Below, piece after piece: positions 9,017-18,980 of a stretch of 64,000 nt of DNA. Below the pieces are notes generated by a model. The model did no database searches. It saw only the letters and a list, made by a program, of their open reading frames with translations, and was not told the origin of the DNA. Numbering within the stretch: position 1 is the first letter of the stretch; each line of letters starts with the position of its first letter. The DNA comes from Sulfuricurvum kujiense DSM 16994 (GTDB lineage: Bacteria > Campylobacterota > Campylobacteria > Campylobacterales > Sulfurimonadaceae): NCBI RefSeq assembly GCF_000183725.1, contig NC_014762.1, positions 2,046,001-2,110,000 on the forward strand, written 5' to 3'. The translations under genes and the position numbers were made by a program.

Positions 9017-9140
9017 CCTAACTCCTTTATATGTCATTGCTAAAAAGTGTATCATATGCACGGCATAAATCATTTAATCTAATAATAACAATGTTAACCG
9101 TTTGTCTTTTTCCGCAATCTTGATGCGCTACAATATCCCT

Positions 9141-9833
9141 ATGAAAGAACCTAATCGCTGTCTTTACTGCCATCATCCGATTTACCGTCTGGGTGACGGG
9201 ATGGTCAAATGTTCCGTATGCAAAAAAAAGTACAGTACAAAGCGGGTTGCTCAGATCAAAGCCCTCATCCGGCTCTTTTGCGAAGATGAAAATGCCCTCA
9301 GCGCGTCCAAAACCCTTCAGCTCAGCTATGTCACGGTTTTGAAATACTATCAACAGTTTCGCCATGCTGCGGCTGAGTATTGCGAGTCCCAATATGACAG
9401 ACACCGTACAAGCGAGTCTCAATACGAAGAGTATCTCTACATCGAAAAATCCAAACGCCATGACAAATCGGCTATCTTCGATTCCCATAATTTTCTGACA
9501 TTCGGCTACGGCGAAAAAGTCTATACGCTTCTCATGCCCTCCCTGGGAGTATTCAAACAGCAGTTCATCGAAGACAATCTTGAAGAGCTCTATTACAAAG
9601 AGTTTTCAAAGTTTATGCGGACCAGTAAAATTATCAAAATATCCGAATACGACAATATTATCGAGAAGTTTTGGCACTATTTTGAACAGTTTATTACACC
9701 TTTTAAAGGGGTAAGCAGAGAACACTTCCCCTACTACCTCAAAGAGGCGGAATTCAAATTCAATACACCTGTCGAAGACCGTTCCGTTGTCATCGAACAG
9801 CTCTATTTCCGCCCTACCGGCTCGGATATTTAA
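9141..9833 (+). CDS. IS1595-like transposase-derived protein, probably domesticated
   Basis: About 230 residues. The N-terminus has a zinc ribbon (CLYC at about 5-8, CSVC at about 24-27), followed by a helix-turn-helix-like segment (ALSASKTLQLSYVTVLKYY). The C-terminal part keeps the tail motif of ISXO2/IS1595 transposases (EKFWHYFEQFITPFKGVSR, then LKEAEFKFN). The acidic residues of the DDE core are not recognisable: the first motif reads ESQYEEYLYIEKSK and no D-G-W-x2-Y segment is visible. Starts at 9102 (TTG) and 9123 are also possible; a TACAAT box at 9129-9134 would place transcription at about 9141. It overlaps the convergent protease gene by 20 bases. It may be a DNA-binding regulator. 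Confidence 0.7.
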   Translation: MKEPNRCLYCHHPIYRLGDGMVKCSVCKKKYSTKRVAQIKALIRLFCEDENALSASKTLQLSYVTVLKYYQQFRHAAAEYCESQYDRHRTSESQYEEYLYIEKSKRHDKSAIFDSHNFLTFGYGEKVYTLLMPSLGVFKQQFIEDNLEELYYKEFSKFMRTSKIIKISEYDNIIEKFWHYFEQFITPFKGVSREHFPYYLKEAEFKFNTPVEDRSVVIEQLYFRPTGSDI

Positions 9834-10344
9834 ACTCTTCTATTATCTCTGTCAGACTCGTAAACGACGCTTTGGACGCCGCTTCGATCCCTATAGTTTT
9901 TAGATAGTTAATAACTGTTTTTATATAGTCATCAAACCGTTTTTCCAATTGCGGACTCAGACCCATATGAAACGTGATGCTGTGGGGAATGATCCCGATA
10001 ACGTTTGATTCGGGAAGCGGATGTCCCATCAGTTCGATCATATCCAGACACTGCATCACCCCCACCTCGTGTGCACCGCCGCTGTTGAGCCCGTACCCGC
10101 TCAGCTCATAAGAGGGGATGTTATAAATACTCCCTGCTTCATCATCGAGATTGATCGTATCGAGGATAATGATACGATCATTCTCCAGAAAAAGATTGAG
10201 CAGATTGATCCCCTCTACCCCGCCGTTAATGACCTCGATAGCAGGTGAAAACGTATAGTTGGCATTCAGATAGGCGCAGGCATAGATACCGATGCCGTCA
10301 TCTTCTTCGAGTACATTGCCGACGCCCAACACAACGATTGACAT
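9814..10344 (-). CDS. Hydrogenase maturation protease (HybD/HyaD type), intact
   Basis: A 176-residue nickel-dependent endopeptidase that removes the C-terminal tail of the large subunit once nickel is inserted. The family metal ligands are all present: Asp16 in LEEDDGIG (Asp replaces the Glu of HybD, as in HycI), Asp62 in IIILDT and His92 in GGAHEVG. Two large subunits here, HydB and its cytoplasmic paralogue, have 20-residue tails after the last histidine and are the likely substrates. It lies three bases after the second protease-like gene. It overlaps the plus-strand transposase-like gene at its 3' end. Confidence 0.9.
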   Translation of the reverse strand: MSIVVLGVGNVLEEDDGIGIYACAYLNANYTFSPAIEVINGGVEGINLLNLFLENDRIIILDTINLDDEAGSIYNIPSYELSGYGLNSGGAHEVGVMQCLDMIELMGHPLPESNVIGIIPHSITFHMGLSPQLEKRFDDYIKTVINYLKTIGIEAASKASFTSLTEIIEEFKYPSR

Positions 10345-10347
10345 ACG

Positions 10348-10905
10348 TTAAAACCCTTTGCCGTGTTCGATACTCGGATTGGCAAACTGTTCTAAAATTT
10401 CATCCAGCCCCATAACCTGTTTTTTGCGCGTCGCTTGTATCCCGCATTTGGCGAGTTCTTCCACAATTACCTCGATGTATCTTTCCCAATGTGAGCGAAG
10501 TGATGAAGTCACGTCAACACAGACGCTGATAATATCTTCGGGGACGATGCTGACCATAGTCGTTTGGGCACAGTGCGAGGCCATTGAGCAGATTTGGAGC
10601 ATTTCGGTAATCTCGACTTCATTGGCCGTTTTTTTGATCCCCTGGTTGGCGATCAGTTCATCGCCGCTCATCACTGTGATCGTCCCTACCGCTTTGGAAT
10701 CATCTGAGCTGGTATTGGCGATAATGACATGCTCATACTCCTGAAGCAGCGGCATCAGCAAAAATCCGAGCGTCCCTCCGTCGATGATGTCGAGTGAGGG
10801 TTCATAGGTAAAATTCTCTTTGAGGTATTTTCCGGCATACAGTCCGATCCCCTCATCCATAAAAAATGCGTTCCCCGAACCGATCAGTGCCACTTTAGCG
10901 TTCAT
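10348..10905 (-). CDS. Maturation protease paralogue lacking two metal ligands
   Basis: A 185-residue member of the HybD/HyaD family, paired with the intact protease downstream. Fold motifs are kept: GSGNAFFMDEGIG at the N-terminus with Glu18 in place, and IIDGGTLGF. However, the Asp of the second motif is Asn64 (HVIIANTSSDD against IIILDTINLDD) and the His of the third is Asn95 (TANEVE against GAHEVG). It therefore probably cannot bind nickel as HybD does. It may be a chaperone or inhibitor of maturation, or recognise a large subunit without cutting it. It follows hypF after a hairpin repeat. Confidence 0.85.
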   Translation of the reverse strand: MNAKVALIGSGNAFFMDEGIGLYAGKYLKENFTYEPSLDIIDGGTLGFLLMPLLQEYEHVIIANTSSDDSKAVGTITVMSGDELIANQGIKKTANEVEITEMLQICSMASHCAQTTMVSIVPEDIISVCVDVTSSLRSHWERYIEVIVEELAKCGIQATRKKQVMGLDEILEQFANPSIEHGKGF

Positions 10906-10936: not shown

Positions 10937-10994
10937 TTTCCGGGCAAAGCCCGAAAACTGGCAGGGACAAATGTCCCTACAACCCCCTAAAGCT
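10937..10994 (-). repeat. Double-hairpin intergenic repeat, copy 2 (runs into hypF)
   Basis: The same arrangement as at 3379-3440: a hairpin around CGGGC-AAA-GCCCG, then perfect arms AGGGACA/TGTCCCT (10,963-10,978), then AACCCCCTAAAGCT. The last codons of hypF (SFRGL and the TAG stop) are read from this repeat, so the element has been captured into the coding sequence. A further perfect 8-bp hairpin (10,996-11,016) lies just inside hypF. Confidence 0.7.
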
Positions 10995-13253
10995 ACCCGC
11001 ATCTTTTTGATGCGGGAGATTGTGCTTTGCATAATAGAGTTGTCCGAGTGCGATCGATCCGTCATTGATCGGCGTTTGCTGTTGTGCGTAAAACCGTCCC
11101 TCTCCGAAACGTCGGTAGAGTCGGCTCATCAACGCACGGTTTTGAAATACTCCTCCGCCGATGACAATCGGCAATTCGGGATACATATCCGCAAAATGCT
11201 CCATGATCGCTTCGAGTGTTGAGAGAAAACGGCTCGCAATGACCGTTTGATTCTCTGTTCCTAGAGCGATGATCTCTTTCACCATCGGCAACACATTAAT
11301 CACTCCGTTTTGGATATCAAAGCTAAAGGGCTCATGGATCGAATCCTCCGCAAACGACTCCATAATCATCCCTCCCTGCCCCTCATACTCAAGGCTTTGG
11401 ATGAATCCCCCCAATGAGGAGACCGCATCAAACAGCCGACCCATTGAAGAGCTGAGGGGAGCATTGATATTTTTGACCCACATATGATGCAGTGTTCGTA
11501 TTTCATGGGGTAAAAAGGTCTCGACTGAGGGTGATTTGAGGTTTAATACCTCATCGAGACTAAAACACTCAAACAGCAATGACAAGGCGATACGTCTAGG
11601 CTCTTTGATCGCTTTGTCTCCCCCTAAAAGGGCAATCGGTTTTAAAAATCCGATCCGCTGATAGCCGCTCAGATCGGCGATCATCACCTCCCCGCCCCAC
11701 AGACTCCCGTCCTCTCCGTATCCCGTACCGTCATAGGCAAAACCGAGCACCTTTTCGTCCAATCCGTACTCGGCCATGCACGCCAAGATATGAGCATAAT
11801 GGTGCTGTATGCCGTAATGCTCTTTTTTCTGAGCCGATGCAAACTGAGTCGTGCTGTATTGAGGATGCAGGTCATGAACAAAGAGCTGCGGCTCGCATTC
11901 ATAAAAACGTTTAAACGTCTGTACCGTCCGCTCAAAATAACTGTCCGCCTCGACGCTCCCCAAATCACCGATATGACCGCTGAGGACCATATTATCCCCT
12001 TTTCCGAGGGCAATCGCACTTTTTTGATGCGCTCCGAGGGCTAAAATTTCTGCCGAACCGTTTTTTTCTGCCGCCACCGTATGGGGAGCAAATCCCCGCC
12101 CCATCCGCAGCATGACAACATGCCCATCGGCGAACTGAACAACGGCATCATCCAGGGCATTGACGATGGTACGGTCATGATCCAAGATTCCATCCACCAC
12201 ATTTCCGAGCCGATTTATGATTTCGCTGCTGCGTACGATGATCGGCTCATCGCTGATATTGGCACTCGTCGCAACGAGGGGAAAATCGATCTTCTCAAAC
12301 ACCAAACGATGCAGCGGGGTATAGGGGATAAATACCCCTAAGCGCTCAATCCCCGGAGCGATATATTTTGAAAGATCTGTCCCTTGAAGCGCATCCACAA
12401 TGACAATCGGCTTGATCGCTCCGCCGATCATCTCCCGTTCAGATTGATTTATCCGGGTGTATCGTTCACACTGCTCCAGCGAGCGGAACATGACGGCAAG
12501 AGGCTTCGCCTTGCGGTGTTTGCGCAGTCGCAGTTCACTCACGGCAGCGTCTGAGGTGGCATCGCACATCAGATGAAATCCCCCTAACCCTTTGAGGGCA
12601 ATAATCTTCCCTGATCTGAGCATCTCTACGGCCAGATCGATCGGATCGCCCGCTATCTCGTCTCCCTTATTATCGATAAATCTTAACTGCGGTCCGCATT
12701 TCGGACAGCTAATCGGCTCGGCATGATAGCGGCGGGATGAGGGGTCGGTATACTCTTCTTTGCACTCCGAACACATCGTAAAATGTTTCATTGAGGTACG
12801 GACGCGGTCATACGGGAGGGTTTGGAGAATCGTATAACGGGGACCGCAATCGGTACAGTTGATAAACGCGTAGCGGTAGCGGCGATTGGAGGGGTCATCC
12901 ATCTCCGCTTCACACGCGGGACATAACGCCGCCTCAAGGGGAATCGCGCCACTCCCCTCTCCCAAGGTGCTTTCCCGGATTTCAAAACTGTTGTAGTTTT
13001 CCGATTCACACGGTTTGACACTCAGCGAATCAATCCGCGCCCGCTCGGGGAGATGCGTGTGCAAAGCGGCTATAAATAATGAAGATTTTTCTCCGTGTGC
13101 CTCAATCACAACCCCATCGGCGGTGTTAAGCACAAACCCTTTTATCTCATACTCTTGCGCTATGCGATAGACAAAAGGGCGAAAACCTACCCCCTGAACC
13201 AGCCCTTTGACGGTAATGGTGACACTGGTATTATAAGAAGACTCCACCGACAA
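10977..13253 (-). CDS. hypF: HypF, carbamoyltransferase for cyanide-ligand synthesis
   Basis: A 758-residue protein of normal length and domain order. It has an acylphosphatase domain (VQGVGFRPF near residue 18), two zinc fingers (CPAC...CTDC and CSEC...CPKC, each with the DPS-RRY spacer), a YrdC-like nucleotide-binding domain (KGLGGFHLMCDA) and a Kae1-like domain with HDLHPQYST and HHYAHI metal histidines and a DGTGYG segment. It makes carbamoyl-adenylate and transfers the carbamoyl group to HypE. It starts with TTG and overlaps the upstream HypF-like gene by 23 bases. Its last residues come from an intergenic repeat. Confidence 0.95.
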   Translation of the reverse strand: MSVESSYNTSVTITVKGLVQGVGFRPFVYRIAQEYEIKGFVLNTADGVVIEAHGEKSSLFIAALHTHLPERARIDSLSVKPCESENYNSFEIRESTLGEGSGAIPLEAALCPACEAEMDDPSNRRYRYAFINCTDCGPRYTILQTLPYDRVRTSMKHFTMCSECKEEYTDPSSRRYHAEPISCPKCGPQLRFIDNKGDEIAGDPIDLAVEMLRSGKIIALKGLGGFHLMCDATSDAAVSELRLRKHRKAKPLAVMFRSLEQCERYTRINQSEREMIGGAIKPIVIVDALQGTDLSKYIAPGIERLGVFIPYTPLHRLVFEKIDFPLVATSANISDEPIIVRSSEIINRLGNVVDGILDHDRTIVNALDDAVVQFADGHVVMLRMGRGFAPHTVAAEKNGSAEILALGAHQKSAIALGKGDNMVLSGHIGDLGSVEADSYFERTVQTFKRFYECEPQLFVHDLHPQYSTTQFASAQKKEHYGIQHHYAHILACMAEYGLDEKVLGFAYDGTGYGEDGSLWGGEVMIADLSGYQRIGFLKPIALLGGDKAIKEPRRIALSLLFECFSLDEVLNLKSPSVETFLPHEIRTLHHMWVKNINAPLSSSMGRLFDAVSSLGGFIQSLEYEGQGGMIMESFAEDSIHEPFSFDIQNGVINVLPMVKEIIALGTENQTVIASRFLSTLEAIMEHFADMYPELPIVIGGGVFQNRALMSRLYRRFGEGRFYAQQQTPINDGSIALGQLYYAKHNLPHQKDAGSFRGL

Positions 13254-15153
13254 CGCAATTTTCCTTCCCGATCGGATAACTCATATTCATTAGGACCGAT
13301 ACAGACTTCAGATTTCGCTGCAAACGGCTGAAAAGGGATTGTCCCGCGAAATAGGATCCGCACAATACGATATCCTCCGCTTTGGTCTTACCTTTGATTT
13401 CAGTAAGAAGTTCGCTGAAATAGTCTCCGAAAGATTCGAAGATAGAATAGCTCAGATAAACTGAATCGACACCCGCTAGACGATAACTGATAATACTGGA
13501 TAAAAAGGCGACGTGATTAAACCGGTTATCCGCTACTTTCGTGTCGATTTGCAGCCCCCCTTTGCCGATGAATTTCAATCCCTCTTTCATCACCCCCTCA
13601 AAGCTCACCTCACGCAGCCCTAGAATCATTGCGGTAGCTTCAAACAACGAAAGATTATTCTGCTCTATCTGAACCAATACGTGATACAGTTCGGGGTGGT
13701 TGGTTTCGATATTGGCGATGAGCCGATCGGATCCTTCTCGCAATCCTCTCATCGATTCGATGATTCCGCTCCCCTCGAACCGCTTCGGAGGAACTACCCG
13801 AATCACTTTTTTGCCGTCATAATACAAAAAAGACGGCTCTCCCTGAAAATAGGCTCCCACTGCTTTGGTTCCGAATTTGTTGTGTTCGGCTATGACTGAC
13901 ATAAAGGAGGCTTCATCTTCCGCTATGGTGTGAAAATTGGCCGATTCGACGGCAGGCATCTCGGTTTCGAGCTGATTGACTTTCAACGTCGAAGCGGAAC
14001 TGAACCGATCCATCTGATCGAACAACATCCCTTTGTTATCTTTTATACCGACCAAACCGTGAGCGATACTAAGCGTATCGGTGCCGTAAGGAAGGCGTGA
14101 GGGGAAAGCGACCCGTTCACCCGAAGCGATAAAACGGACCTCCTTGTTGATAAAGAGGCGCATATCGCTTTGATGGTTGATGTTGAGATCATAGTCCATC
14201 ACAAAATCAGCATCATACGGCGTATCGACCACTTCATACACGATATAGTCCAATTCCAGCAGCGTCAATTCTTTGGCCAAAAGGATCGAGAACCCCTCAT
14301 CCGGGTATTTTACATCCATTGTCGAGCCGAATGTATCGATGAGAGCTTGATCTTTAAGCGCTACGTGCAAGACGGGGCGTTCGATACTGAGAAGCGCATT
14401 GAATTCATCGTTGATCAGTGAACAGTAATCGGTGATTTTAGACGCGTTGACCAGCATGAGAACCGATGCGGGAGAAGGTTTATCACTGCGCTGAAACAAA
14501 CGGTATCCCATCGTTGTTTTCATGAGCAGCGTTTTACCGTCACGCAGCGCTTTGGCGGCAACCTCGAACATCGTTCGAAAGCTCCCCGCATCGTTAGCGT
14601 AGCGCTCTTTATCTTTGTGGATCAATCTGACGGGGATACCGCACGTATGGCACGAGTTTAATACCTGCTTTTCGCGGCGCCCGAGTGTATGTGATTCGTC
14701 CTCACAGTTCTCGCACGGCTTCACATACTTCAATGCGGTATTGCTCCGCTCAAACGGGTAGTGTTCGAAAAATGCGTACTGCCCACCGCAATGGGCACAC
14801 TGGGTAAAAGGGTAGTAATAACGTCTGGATGAGGGATCAAACATCTCTTTTTGACACGTTGGGCATAGTCCCAGCGCACTCGGATATTCAACCTCAAAAT
14901 CAGGGATACCCTCCGGTTCCCCCTCCACATCATAATGCTGACTCTGCGTCATAAAACACGATGCGGGGAGTGTTGATGCAATGGTTTCCAAACACTCTTG
15001 AAGCTTTTCATGAGAACTCTCAAAAGCACAAATAATCTTGTTTTTTTTCTGATGGACAACAGCTTTGATTCCAAAAGAGCGAATCGTGGCAATCAAATAA
15101 TTTTTAATCGTCGGTTGGGAAAAAGAGGTCATAACCTCCAAAGTGAATGCCAT
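13231..15153 (-). CDS. HypF-like pseudoenzyme
   Basis: A 640-residue paralogue of HypF, about 120 residues shorter. The region after the acylphosphatase position aligns by eye with HypF: CPTCQKEMFDPSSRRYYYPF, CAHCGGQY, CENC and CHTCG keep the zinc-finger cysteines. The catalytic features are gone. There is no VQGVGFRP arginine loop in the N-terminal domain. The YrdC nucleotide site KGLGGFHL is reduced to KTTMGYRLF without the RKxRKAKPLAVM segment. The Kae1-like part lacks HDLHP, HHYAHI and DGTGYG. The frame is open and cleanly coupled to hypF, so it is a maintained protein, not a dying gene. It may act as a scaffold or regulator of maturation. Confidence 0.8.
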   Translation of the reverse strand: MAFTLEVMTSFSQPTIKNYLIATIRSFGIKAVVHQKKNKIICAFESSHEKLQECLETIASTLPASCFMTQSQHYDVEGEPEGIPDFEVEYPSALGLCPTCQKEMFDPSSRRYYYPFTQCAHCGGQYAFFEHYPFERSNTALKYVKPCENCEDESHTLGRREKQVLNSCHTCGIPVRLIHKDKERYANDAGSFRTMFEVAAKALRDGKTLLMKTTMGYRLFQRSDKPSPASVLMLVNASKITDYCSLINDEFNALLSIERPVLHVALKDQALIDTFGSTMDVKYPDEGFSILLAKELTLLELDYIVYEVVDTPYDADFVMDYDLNINHQSDMRLFINKEVRFIASGERVAFPSRLPYGTDTLSIAHGLVGIKDNKGMLFDQMDRFSSASTLKVNQLETEMPAVESANFHTIAEDEASFMSVIAEHNKFGTKAVGAYFQGEPSFLYYDGKKVIRVVPPKRFEGSGIIESMRGLREGSDRLIANIETNHPELYHVLVQIEQNNLSLFEATAMILGLREVSFEGVMKEGLKFIGKGGLQIDTKVADNRFNHVAFLSSIISYRLAGVDSVYLSYSIFESFGDYFSELLTEIKGKTKAEDIVLCGSYFAGQSLFSRLQRNLKSVSVLMNMSYPIGKENCVVGGVFL

Positions 15154-15255: not shown

Positions 15256-15963
15256 TTAAAGTGAATCGTCTTTGACAAATTTAGAGCCGCCGATAACAAT
15301 AGCGATATCCGCCTCTTTCCAGAAAATGGTTCTCCAGACTTGGTAATAGATATGAAATACCACCCAGCAGATAATCAACCACATCGTCGTATGGTGTGCA
15401 ATACGGACATCCATAAGAGTTCCGCCGCTTACTACAATCGTCCAGTCGGTTACCAGATGCAGCATCCACGGCCACCATGCACCGATCGAACTGATTCCTG
15501 AACCCAAACCGTGCACATAGAGTTGAAGACCCGTAAACAACATCCATACCAAAAGGAGATGGAAAATCGTAAAATAGACCGTATTGAAACTGTCCGCATG
15601 GGCCGAATCAAACTCTTTTTTACGGTTAAGGGTCAATAAATTGACCAATACCGCTTTAAACTCAGCAATATTTTTTGCGTTCGGAATAAGCTTTTTGTAC
15701 GGCTTTTCAAAACGGCTGAAAAAATAGAGATAAGCAATAATAACCGATGTAACATCAAATAAAATTGCAATGATAAAATGGCCGTAACGGTTCCACGCCA
15801 TCACGTATTTATCGACTGCACCGTCGGCCATAAATGTTTGATAATACGGATGACCGATATAAAGACCCGTTACGACCGCCCCAATCATACAAATGGCATT
15901 CACCCAGTGGATGATGCGCATTGCAGGCGTCATACGCTTGACTTGTTTGTACCCCTGTTTCAT
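15256..15963 (-). CDS. hydC: HydC, b-type cytochrome subunit of uptake hydrogenase
   Basis: A 235-residue di-heme cytochrome b of the Ni/Fe-hydrogenase family, with four to five membrane helices. Candidate heme histidines sit in RIIHWVN (helix 1), the GHFIIA and IFHLLLVW segments, and MWLIICWVVFHIYYQ (last helix). It passes electrons from the periplasmic HydAB pair into the quinone pool. It follows hydB by ten bases, giving the classical hydABC order. Full length; nothing unusual. Confidence 0.93.
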   Translation of the reverse strand: MKQGYKQVKRMTPAMRIIHWVNAICMIGAVVTGLYIGHPYYQTFMADGAVDKYVMAWNRYGHFIIAILFDVTSVIIAYLYFFSRFEKPYKKLIPNAKNIAEFKAVLVNLLTLNRKKEFDSAHADSFNTVYFTIFHLLLVWMLFTGLQLYVHGLGSGISSIGAWWPWMLHLVTDWTIVVSGGTLMDVRIAHHTTMWLIICWVVFHIYYQVWRTIFWKEADIAIVIGGSKFVKDDSL

Positions 15964-15973
15964 GATTGTCTCC

Positions 15974-17749
15974 TTAGATACTGCAAGAAGTATCTACTTT
16001 GTAAACAGCAAGCTCTTTACCTTTTGTATCGACAACGTGAACCGCACATGCGATACATGGGTCAAAACTGTGAATCGTACGGATGATCTCTAAGGGCTGT
16101 TCCGGATTAGCTACTTTGGTTCCGATCAAACTCGCTTCATATGCACCCAAACGTCCTTTATGATCACGCGGAGCCGCATTCCATGTTGATGGGACAATCG
16201 CTTGATAGTTTGCTACTTTTCCATCGGTAATACTTACCCAGTGACCGAGTGCACCGCGCGGAGCTTCCGCCATACCGCGCCCTTTTGCACTTACGCTCAC
16301 TTTGTCGAAATCAAACTCTGTCCATGTACTTTTGTCTCCGGCAAGAACATTTGCCGTCAACTCATCGATCCATTCAACCATGACGTCAGACATCAATGAT
16401 GTCTCGATCGCACGAGCCGCTGTACGCCCGACAGTACTGAACAGTACTGATACCGGAAGTTTTCCGCGCTCTAGGAACTCAGTCACGTATTTGGTAATAC
16501 GCTTATCTTTAGCCGCGACACCGATTACCATACGAGCCAACGGCCCCACTTCAACGCGGGTATCGTTGTAAATCGGAGATTTGATCCAGCTGTATTTCTC
16601 TTTCGTTTTCAAATACGCAATTCCATCCGAACGTTTATCCAAACCGGTGTATTCAGGAATGGTTTGACCTTCGTACGGGTGAAGAGGTTTGTCCCCTTTG
16701 TACCAGGCGTGAGTGACGTCTTCAGCAATTTTTTCTTGATCCAACGGATGAACTTTAGAAATATCTCCGCCGAGTACTACCCCGCTTGGGAAAAGAAGGG
16801 CCGATTTGTAAAAACCGGTATCATCAAGACGGAAATCTCCGTAACTCATGAAGTTCAAGAGTCCGCCGCCGGTTCCGCCGACCCCTTTGCCGCCCATCAA
16901 TTCGCTGAATGTCGCTTTAGAATCGGTCGCTTCACCCGCATACATGGTTCCCGCCATGTAAACATCCGGCAAATACGCTTGTTTAACAAATTTACGTCCT
17001 GCAAGCAACAACGATTTAAAGAGGGCCAGACGTGCCGGATTTTGGATATCCTGAACACACGTTACCCCTCCGACGACGATACTTTGCGGATGCGGGTTTT
17101 TACCGCCGAAAATCGCCTGCATTTTTGCCATATCGCGTTGAATATCCAATGCTTGCAAGTAGTGGGCAACCCCGATAAGATTTTGTTCCGGTGTGAGTTT
17201 ATAGTGAGGATTGCCCCAATATCCGTTACCGAAAATTCCCAAACGCCCTTGCTTTACAAATTTTGCTACACGGTCTTGGATCGCTTTAAATTCGCTCTCA
17301 CCGTCGATAAACGGAGATTCTCCCGCGACACTCGCCCATTTGCGTGCTTCTGCTGCTGTTTTAACCGGATCAGCCGAAAGGGCGGAGACGACATCGACAA
17401 AGTCAAGCGCATGAAGGTGATAGAAGTGAACCACATGGTCATGCACATACAACGCACCCTGAATCAGGTTACGAACGATACGGGCATTTTTAGGGATCGT
17501 GATATCAAACGCATCTTCAACCGCTTCAATAGAACGTTGATAGTGAGTACCGGTACAAACACCGCAGATACGCATTGCCAACAATCCGCAGTCACGCGGA
17601 TCACGCCCTTGTAAAATCGTCTCAATCCCGCGGAACATCGTTGATGCGCTATAGGCGTCTACAATCGTGTTATTCTCATCAATGACAGCTTCAATACGCA
17701 AATGCCCTTCGATACGGGTAATAGGGTCAACTACAATATGTTTACTCAT
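15974..17749 (-). CDS. hydB: HydB, large subunit of periplasmic [NiFe] uptake hydrogenase
   Basis: A 591-residue large subunit carrying the NiFe(CN)2CO centre. The N-terminal ligand motif RICGVCTGTH supplies Cys62 and Cys65; the C-terminal motif DPCIACAVH supplies Cys565 and Cys568. After His571 a 20-residue tail remains, to be removed by a maturation protease. The sequence has the full group 1 layout and pairs with the Tat-exported HydA, so it is exported as a complex. Its start overlaps the hydA stop by eight bases. Confidence 0.96.
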   Translation of the reverse strand: MSKHIVVDPITRIEGHLRIEAVIDENNTIVDAYSASTMFRGIETILQGRDPRDCGLLAMRICGVCTGTHYQRSIEAVEDAFDITIPKNARIVRNLIQGALYVHDHVVHFYHLHALDFVDVVSALSADPVKTAAEARKWASVAGESPFIDGESEFKAIQDRVAKFVKQGRLGIFGNGYWGNPHYKLTPEQNLIGVAHYLQALDIQRDMAKMQAIFGGKNPHPQSIVVGGVTCVQDIQNPARLALFKSLLLAGRKFVKQAYLPDVYMAGTMYAGEATDSKATFSELMGGKGVGGTGGGLLNFMSYGDFRLDDTGFYKSALLFPSGVVLGGDISKVHPLDQEKIAEDVTHAWYKGDKPLHPYEGQTIPEYTGLDKRSDGIAYLKTKEKYSWIKSPIYNDTRVEVGPLARMVIGVAAKDKRITKYVTEFLERGKLPVSVLFSTVGRTAARAIETSLMSDVMVEWIDELTANVLAGDKSTWTEFDFDKVSVSAKGRGMAEAPRGALGHWVSITDGKVANYQAIVPSTWNAAPRDHKGRLGAYEASLIGTKVANPEQPLEIIRTIHSFDPCIACAVHVVDTKGKELAVYKVDTSCSI

Positions 17750-18980
17750 GGTTCTCTCCTGAATTTTCTCGTTTGCCTGCTACCGTGCTGGCTGCTGCAT
17801 GAATCGCGATACCGATACCGGCTGCGGTCAACATGCCCAAACCGAATTCATCAACGGTTTTTTCTACGCCGCCTGTCGGTGCTTTAATTTTTGCATCGGC
17901 CATCGGGCGCTCATAGGCGTATTTATCCCAGAAATCGGGTTCCGAACATCCGATACATCCGCGTCCGACACCGATCGGCCAGTTGACCGCTTCGTTGTAA
18001 CGGACGATCGAACAGTTGTTAAACGTCATCGGCCCTTTACAACCCATTTTGTAGAGACAGAAATTGTTTTGCGCCCCTACATCGCCCCACTCTTCAACGT
18101 ATTCACCCGCATCGAAGTGTGCACGGCGCTCACAGTTGTCATGGATACGGTATCCGAATGCGAATTTAGGACGTAAAAGTGAATCGAGTTCCGGTACTTG
18201 TCCCGTCAATACGTAATGAAGTATTACCCCCACCATATTTGCCGGATTTGCCGGACAGGCAGGGATATTGATTAACGGTTTGTTTTTAACAACGTCCATA
18301 ACACCGACGGCACCCGTAGGATTCGGAGCAGCCGCAGGAATACCGCCGAACGTTGCACAGGCTCCGACCGCTACAACAGCCGCAGCATTTTCGGCACAAC
18401 GGACGAGATGATCATGGAATGTTTCACCGGCGGCACCGATCGTACCGTATTGTCCGTCCATACCCATAGGAATAGAACCTTCTACAAAAAGAAGATATTT
18501 CCCTTTGAAATGTTCCATCGCTTCTTCAAGCTGTTTTTCAGCCTGAAAACCGGACGCCGCCTGAAGCGTTTCATGGAATTCAAGAGAGATGATATCCAAA
18601 ACGATCTCATCGATTTTCGGCCCGTCTGCACGAAGGAGCGCTTCAGAGTTACCGGCACAGTCTTGAAGTTCGAGCCAAATCACAGGGGCACGGTTCATCA
18701 TTACGGCCGCATCCGCAACAAGCGGAGTAAACATCGGAGGAAGCATTAACATCGCTGTTGTCGCACTCGCCCATTTCATAAATTCGCGTCGATCTATCCC
18801 GTTTTCTTCCAAGAGTTCGGTGAAATCGAGCTTATTGGCCGGTGTATTGGAGCGCATCTCGTTCAAGCGCGCCTCACACTTTGCAAACAGCTCTTGGTAA
18901 TACGTATCACCCTTGTTCGTCTCAACGCGCGAACTTTTCGAAGTAAACAGTTTTTTAACCGCTTCTACTTTATCGGACAT
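17742..18980 (-). CDS. hydA: HydA, small subunit of periplasmic [NiFe] uptake hydrogenase
   Basis: A 412-residue small subunit with a twin-arginine signal (DRREFMKW, Arg64-Arg65) preceded by about 60 charged residues. Iron-sulfur ligands are in LQDCAGNSE (proximal), VGACATFGG, PACPANP, HDNCERR, CLYKMGCKGP, CSIVRYNE and GCIGC. A C-terminal membrane helix (about 378-402) anchors it on the periplasmic face next to HydC. The ribosome site GAGGAGGGG is strong. The unusual N-terminal extension recurs inside the 808-residue fusion encoded at 23,572-25,998, showing that the two proteins are paralogues. Confidence 0.96.
   Translation of the reverse strand: MSDKVEAVKKLFTSKSSRVETNKGDTYYQELFAKCEARLNEMRSNTPANKLDFTELLEENGIDRREFMKWASATTAMLMLPPMFTPLVADAAVMMNRAPVIWLELQDCAGNSEALLRADGPKIDEIVLDIISLEFHETLQAASGFQAEKQLEEAMEHFKGKYLLFVEGSIPMGMDGQYGTIGAAGETFHDHLVRCAENAAAVVAVGACATFGGIPAAAPNPTGAVGVMDVVKNKPLINIPACPANPANMVGVILHYVLTGQVPELDSLLRPKFAFGYRIHDNCERRAHFDAGEYVEEWGDVGAQNNFCLYKMGCKGPMTFNNCSIVRYNEAVNWPIGVGRGCIGCSEPDFWDKYAYERPMADAKIKAPTGGVEKTVDEFGLGMLTAAGIGIAIHAAASTVAGKRENSGENHE

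Follow-up and report, generated by a model that had tools for sequence, protein, structure and literature searches.

The need for HydE in forming an active Helicobacter pylori hydrogenase has been recognized for some two decades, and recent papers still leave its function open. In PMC7695850, which cites Benoit 2004, hydE mutants are described as having lost hydrogenase activity, with no rescue by nickel and with normal urease. HydD and HydE have been credited with bringing the hydrogenase complex to the membrane (PMC4992972), and their functions have been called not fully understood (PMC5557546). This Helicobacter-type protein is distinct from the radical S-adenosylmethionine HydE of [FeFe]-hydrogenase. 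Here we analyzed a 640-codon gene in a 64,000-nucleotide stretch of the Sulfuricurvum kujiense DSM 16994 genome (NC_014762.1, positions 2,046,001 to 2,110,000; hereafter the window), which an earlier note, made from the DNA letters, had described as a maintained paralogue of HypF that lacks the catalytic motifs. The gene is an orthologue of Helicobacter HydE, an identity with a mutant-tested H. pylori gene that the note had missed. By alignment it is a homologue of HypF without the HypF active sites, its catalytic motifs being substituted or deleted. The hydE gene is probably an ancient hypF duplicate that lost its catalytic sites and now acts as a non-catalytic, dedicated assembly factor of the hydrogenase HydABC.

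The open reading frame is intact, with an ATG start and zero internal stops. On TIGR00143, the curated HypF profile with a cut-off of 466 bits, the protein scores 104, which places it outside the curated family, whereas the neighboring true HypF scores 782 bits. Pfam returned zf-HYPF (2.3e-15) and a weak HypF_C_2 match below threshold. BLAST aligned the protein with the neighboring HypF at 28% identity over 228 residues, an alignment that takes in the zinc fingers and some of the YrdC region. Profile–profile comparison of 26 long HydE homologues with 35 HypF rows extended over 595 columns (probability 100, E 2e-38), and the homology spans four domains in order, with the acylphosphatase-type N-terminal fold retained. 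NCBI labels this long zinc-finger form 'hypothetical protein', as it does the homologues in Sulfurimonas paralvinellae and Sulfurovum mangrovi.

Catalytic columns were compared by alignment of the same 26 homologues and 35 HypF rows. Acylphosphatase-family enzymes use an Arg and an Asn in catalysis. The VQGVGFR loop and the Asn are invariant or nearly so in the HypF rows, and the motifs are gone in 26/26 homologues. Equally constant in HypF, the YrdC KxR and SxN are deleted in the HydE alignment, the Kae1 HHxxH is replaced in all 26 homologues, and DGTG is lost. The window protein thus differs from HypF, which it resembles in the order of four domains, in fold and in zinc-finger cysteines (TIGR00143; PDB 3vti, 4g9i, 3tsq), in a score far under the HypF cut-off and in lacking the motifs given as catalytic for HypF, namely YrdC KxR...SxN and Kae1 HxxH...D (PMC9654439). 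Its zinc-finger cysteines lie at residues 97, 100, 119 and 122 and at 147, 150, 168 and 171; those of finger 1 are kept in every homologue and those of finger 2 in 24/26. The description in the earlier note of an uninterrupted HypF paralogue that keeps the zinc-finger cysteines and the domain order while losing the acylphosphatase, YrdC and Kae1 motifs is therefore accurate.

The AlphaFold2 model of the window protein, computed from an alignment of own-phylum homologues only and no templates, is of high confidence (predicted local distance difference test (pLDDT) 91.4, predicted template modeling score 0.90). Its best matches are full-length HypF structures (Foldseek E 7.8e-34 for 3vti), and alignment to HypF 4g9i with VIA-align gave Z 30.3 with 586 residues aligned across residues 1–640. 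Lower-ranked single-domain matches comprise Kae1/TsaD (residues 358–640) and Sua5/YrdC (178–351), and the N-terminal domain, aligned to 4g9i and 3vti from residue 1, shows a beta-alpha-beta-beta-alpha-beta order. The protein is thus predicted to have the four-domain fold of HypF, acylphosphatase, zinc fingers, YrdC and Kae1. The model keeps this fold with the catalytic residues gone, so the possibility, allowed for in the earlier note, that other residues retain the active sites falls away. HydE from the H. pylori group, a shorter protein, was also modeled well (pLDDT 89.3), and HypF structures account for all of its top PDB matches (Foldseek E 6.8e-16, Z about 16).

Synteny, profile and fold identify the window gene as an orthologue of Helicobacter HydE by common descent. 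The order hydA-hydB-hydC-hydD-HydE, often followed by hypF, occurs in nearly all Campylobacterota loci read, and hydE takes fifth place in hydABCDE both in the H. pylori group and in a named species, Helicobacter cetorum (L109). The H. pylori-group loci (L075–L079) were assigned by 76% HydE identity to H. cetorum together with operon order. Unlike this usual arrangement, the window places hydD after hypF, and in a Campylobacter-like genus (L062, L102) hydABCD stands on its own and HydE adjoins hypF. HydE overlaps hypF in the window, as the earlier note had seen, by 23 nucleotides if TTG 13253 is the hypF start; short overlaps recur in relatives. A hidden Markov model of long and short HydE forms matches the Helicobacter group at 1e-31 to 1e-41. 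Helicobacter HydE (hp0635) shares with the window form its operon place, profile family and predicted HypF-derived fold; it differs in having about 512 residues without zinc fingers, as against 640 with two intact fingers and a complete Kae1-like domain. On its own, Helicobacter HydE has almost no sequence similarity to HypF (one protein was without a Pfam match, another had a sub-threshold match). For that reason, the missing link between the two families is supplied by the zinc-finger forms found in Sulfurimonas and in the window's genus.

HydE is conserved over almost the whole phylum Campylobacterota, within which its occurrence was surveyed, and is no peculiarity of this genome. With a profile that also covers shorter relatives, most of the 298 genomes yield a family member, the tally of 284 consisting in part of matches to hypF itself, and homologues of 580–650 residues are present in several families. 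Across the phylum, length erodes from 640 to 380 residues, and the CxxC pairs fall from four in the window type to two or none elsewhere; Helicobacter and Campylobacter forms have degraded zinc fingers or none. The Kae1-like domain is the best-conserved part. In the tree, HydE rows form one clade (Shimodaira–Hasegawa-like approximate likelihood ratio test 100) on a long stem, apart from Campylobacterota and outgroup HypF. HydE is under purifying selection: the ratio of nonsynonymous to synonymous substitution rates (dN/dS, NG86) is 0.06 against an 81%-identical relative, an approximate value as dS is saturated, and 0.09–0.20 for other pairs, values typical of genes under constraint. The claim of selection in the earlier note holds on these ratios. 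Broken frames occur in single genomes. In G163 the hydABC-HydE-hypF cluster is duplicated, with HydE alone broken into shorter frames in one copy (L103:8381-10016(+)), the other genes being open, and intact in the second cluster. The sole HydE match in G036 (L104:4322-6081(+)) is split into two overlapping frames, a pseudogene or a sequencing error.

HydE follows the membrane-bound hydABC, one per cluster, and not HypF or other [NiFe]-hydrogenases. We checked 46 genomes for hydB; as these were picked for contrast in presence and absence and are related by descent, the counts are descriptive. All genomes with intact HydE carried hydB (22/22), and one with a HydE fragment only (G196) had none. 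Among the 23 genomes without HydE, 18 gave no hydB-like match at the threshold used, G200 gave one fragmentary 37% match, and four (G126, G129, G282 and G284) gave only the type with a fused small subunit (L095–L097, L101); 22 of the 23 lack hydABC, G200 being the exception. Three of these four (all except G284) are recorded with hyp genes in addition to this hydrogenase, yet without HydE. Two genomes, G142 and G179, retain hypF with neither hydB nor HydE, and the HydE remnant of G179 contains 13 stops. Genomes with two hydABC types (L041, L042, G125, G225) carry two HydE proteins, and each HydE groups with its hydrogenase type where the tree holds both. Since HydE is missing where hypF accompanies another [NiFe]-hydrogenase and hydABC is absent, the protein probably serves hydABC and not general cyanide (CN)-ligand synthesis. 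Of the functions offered in the earlier note, a non-catalytic paralogue tied to one of four hydrogenases stands; a partner in CN-ligand synthesis as such does not fit the co-occurrence.

A candidate partner within HydABC is the small subunit HydA. Twelve orphan HydA-like proteins of 540–609 residues, without a twin-arginine motif, carry the Kae1-like C-terminal domain of HydE. They hold full Oxidored_q6 and NiFe_hyd_SSU_C domains, their C-terminal part matches HydE in hhalign at 99.9% (E 3.5e-31) and HypF at 83%, and they are spread over many genera of Helicobacteraceae and a single genus of Campylobacteraceae. No large subunit was recognized beside them in the stretches read. Elsewhere, HyaE/HyaF or HybE hold the small subunit until the large subunit is finished, before export by the twin-arginine translocation (Tat) system. 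These proteins (HyaE/HyaF being HoxO/HoxQ in other systems) resemble HydE in proposed role only, as hydrogenase-specific assembly factors encoded beside structural genes, and belong to unrelated sequence families; a Pfam scan of window HydE gave no match to PF07449, PF04809 or PF11939. HyaF (PF04809) and HybE (PF11939) were found in 0/121 Campylobacterota genomes. HyaE matches in 117/121 genomes were rejected as weak, mostly 53-position matches to thioredoxin-sized reading frames, and the one in the S. kujiense genome reads as a canonical thioredoxin with WCGPC. Together, the fusions and the missing known chaperones point to the small subunit as a candidate target of HydE.

We propose that hypF was duplicated long ago and that the copy, keeping the HypF scaffold and losing three catalytic sites, would have become a dedicated non-catalytic assembly factor of the membrane-bound [NiFe]-hydrogenase HydABC. 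Its Kae1-like C-terminal domain may bind HydA, and HydE would then retain HydA, alone or paired with HydB, until maturation of the large subunit, including cleavage by HydD, is complete and Tat export can follow; this part of the model is quite possible, if short of probable. More tentative still is a wider scenario in which the duplication occurred at the Campylobacterota root, gave rise to a dead, hydrogenase-specific small-subunit chaperone that replaced HyaE/HyaF/HybE, and was later followed, in Helicobacteraceae and Campylobacteraceae, by fusion to orphan small-subunit proteins. Several observations weigh against these proposals. The case for HydA draws on the fusions and the missing chaperones; the fusions are orphans that may have another role, and the absence of known chaperones is a weaker line, as HyaE/HyaF/HybE belong to other hydrogenase subgroups anyway. 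HydE evolutionary distances track hydA (Spearman 0.91), hydB (0.80) and hypF (0.62) over 20 loci, but the preference for hydA over hydB, seen in the whole set, disappears when each hydrogenase type is taken separately, and linkage in an operon can by itself produce such tracking. We therefore did not treat distance tracking as decisive between HydA and HydB. Extra hydAB pairs at L106, L107 and L108 are without a HydE of their own, in genomes that have one elsewhere. Unlabelled proteins of 370–489 residues adjoin these pairs.

As the main alternative, HydE might be a specificity factor for the large subunit. It would keep part of the HypF docking surface and guide the HypE/HypC-HypD machinery towards precursor HydB, and the membrane-bound enzyme would thereby be the first to receive CN/CO and nickel. 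Its HypF origin and adjacency to hypF, the presence of one HydE per hydB type, the location of hydE next to the large-subunit protease gene hydD, and distances that, in the pooled set, follow hydB more closely than they follow hypF all agree with such a role. We nevertheless regard it as unlikely, because the natural fusion partner is the small and not the large subunit and other large subunits of the phylum mature without HydE. A regulatory or structural partnership with HypF/HypE in general CN-ligand synthesis, the hetero-complex of the earlier note, suggested by the overlap of the two genes and by the full HypF fold, zinc fingers included, of the window form, is improbable: it conflicts with the co-occurrence pattern above and with the decay of the zinc fingers in Helicobacter and Campylobacter.

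Two further alternatives concern the protein itself. The long family has several motifs with almost no variation, and HydE could in principle have gained a different catalytic activity through its own conserved residues, such as GKGGxQIDT, SYSIFESFGDY or NALLSIERP. Erosion to 380–512 residues has left few invariant positions, however, and among the 8 columns invariant over 36 diverse members none is His or Cys; a new activity is accordingly very improbable. The frameshifted copies in single genomes (a second copy in G163, and G036) would be expected of a recent, decaying hypF duplicate. That explanation, which the earlier note had kept in view, is ruled out by a dN/dS of 0.06–0.20 and by an ancient single clade on a long stem, and intact HydE in nearly all hydABC-bearing genomes also speaks against it.

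The gene family is already known as HydE. We found no paper linking it to HypF in a search mostly outside subscription journals, and the original Helicobacter or Wolinella papers may mention the link; the same search, with the same restriction, gave no statement on the fusion of the HydE C-terminus to small-subunit proteins. Reading HydE as a dead HypF explains its origin, supplies a structural model, names the hydrogenase served and points to HydA as candidate partner. HydE clearly illustrates how a biosynthetic enzyme can become a pseudoenzyme within the pathway it came from, and it is in the window form that descent from HypF can be recognized. Coordinates are collected in Table 1.

Table 1. 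Features of the hydrogenase locus in the window, domains of HydE, and fusion proteins at other Campylobacterota loci.
Feature	Position	Strand	Basis
HydE, long zinc-finger form (HypF-derived pseudoenzyme), 640 residues	13231..15153	(-)	
N-terminal acylphosphatase-like domain (residues 1-80), without the catalytic Arg and Asn	14914..15153	(-)	AlphaFold2 fold, HypF alignment
Double HypF-type zinc finger, residues 90-176	14626..14886	(-)	
YrdC-like domain (residues 178-351), with deletion of the KxR and SxN loops	14101..14622	(-)	
Kae1-like domain, residues 358-640, HHxxH and DGTG lost	13234..14082	(-)	
hydA, small subunit, Tat motif DRREFMK	17742..18980	(-)	
hydB, large subunit of membrane-bound hydrogenase	15974..17749	(-)	
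hydC, cytochrome b subunit	15256..15963	(-)	
hypF, catalytic enzyme, overlaps HydE stop by 23 nucleotides	10977..13253	(-)	
HydD-type maturation protease, first copy	10348..10905	(-)	
HydD-type maturation protease, second copy	9814..10344	(-)	
Orphan HydA-like/HydE C-terminal fusions	L083:5171-6955; L130, L135-L138, L140-L144, L146	(-) for L083	

Complete H2-oxidation modules also occur on plasmids. A 49.8-kb plasmid of Sulfurimonas paralvinellae (L147, NZ_CP041407.1) carries hydABC, HydE, hypF, proteases and hypBCDEA, and Sulfurovum mangrovi has a complete H2-oxidation module on a plasmid of 395 kb, where the hypF annotation is split between an acylphosphatase gene and a second gene for the rest. 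Beside the window cluster, positions 9102-9833(+) encode a zinc-ribbon protein; a relative of it, carried by the S. paralvinellae plasmid, bears the annotation 'transposase'. Relatives of the zinc-ribbon protein recur beside hyd/hyp clusters at many Campylobacterota loci (32–74% identity), which suggests a domesticated regulator and not a mobile element.

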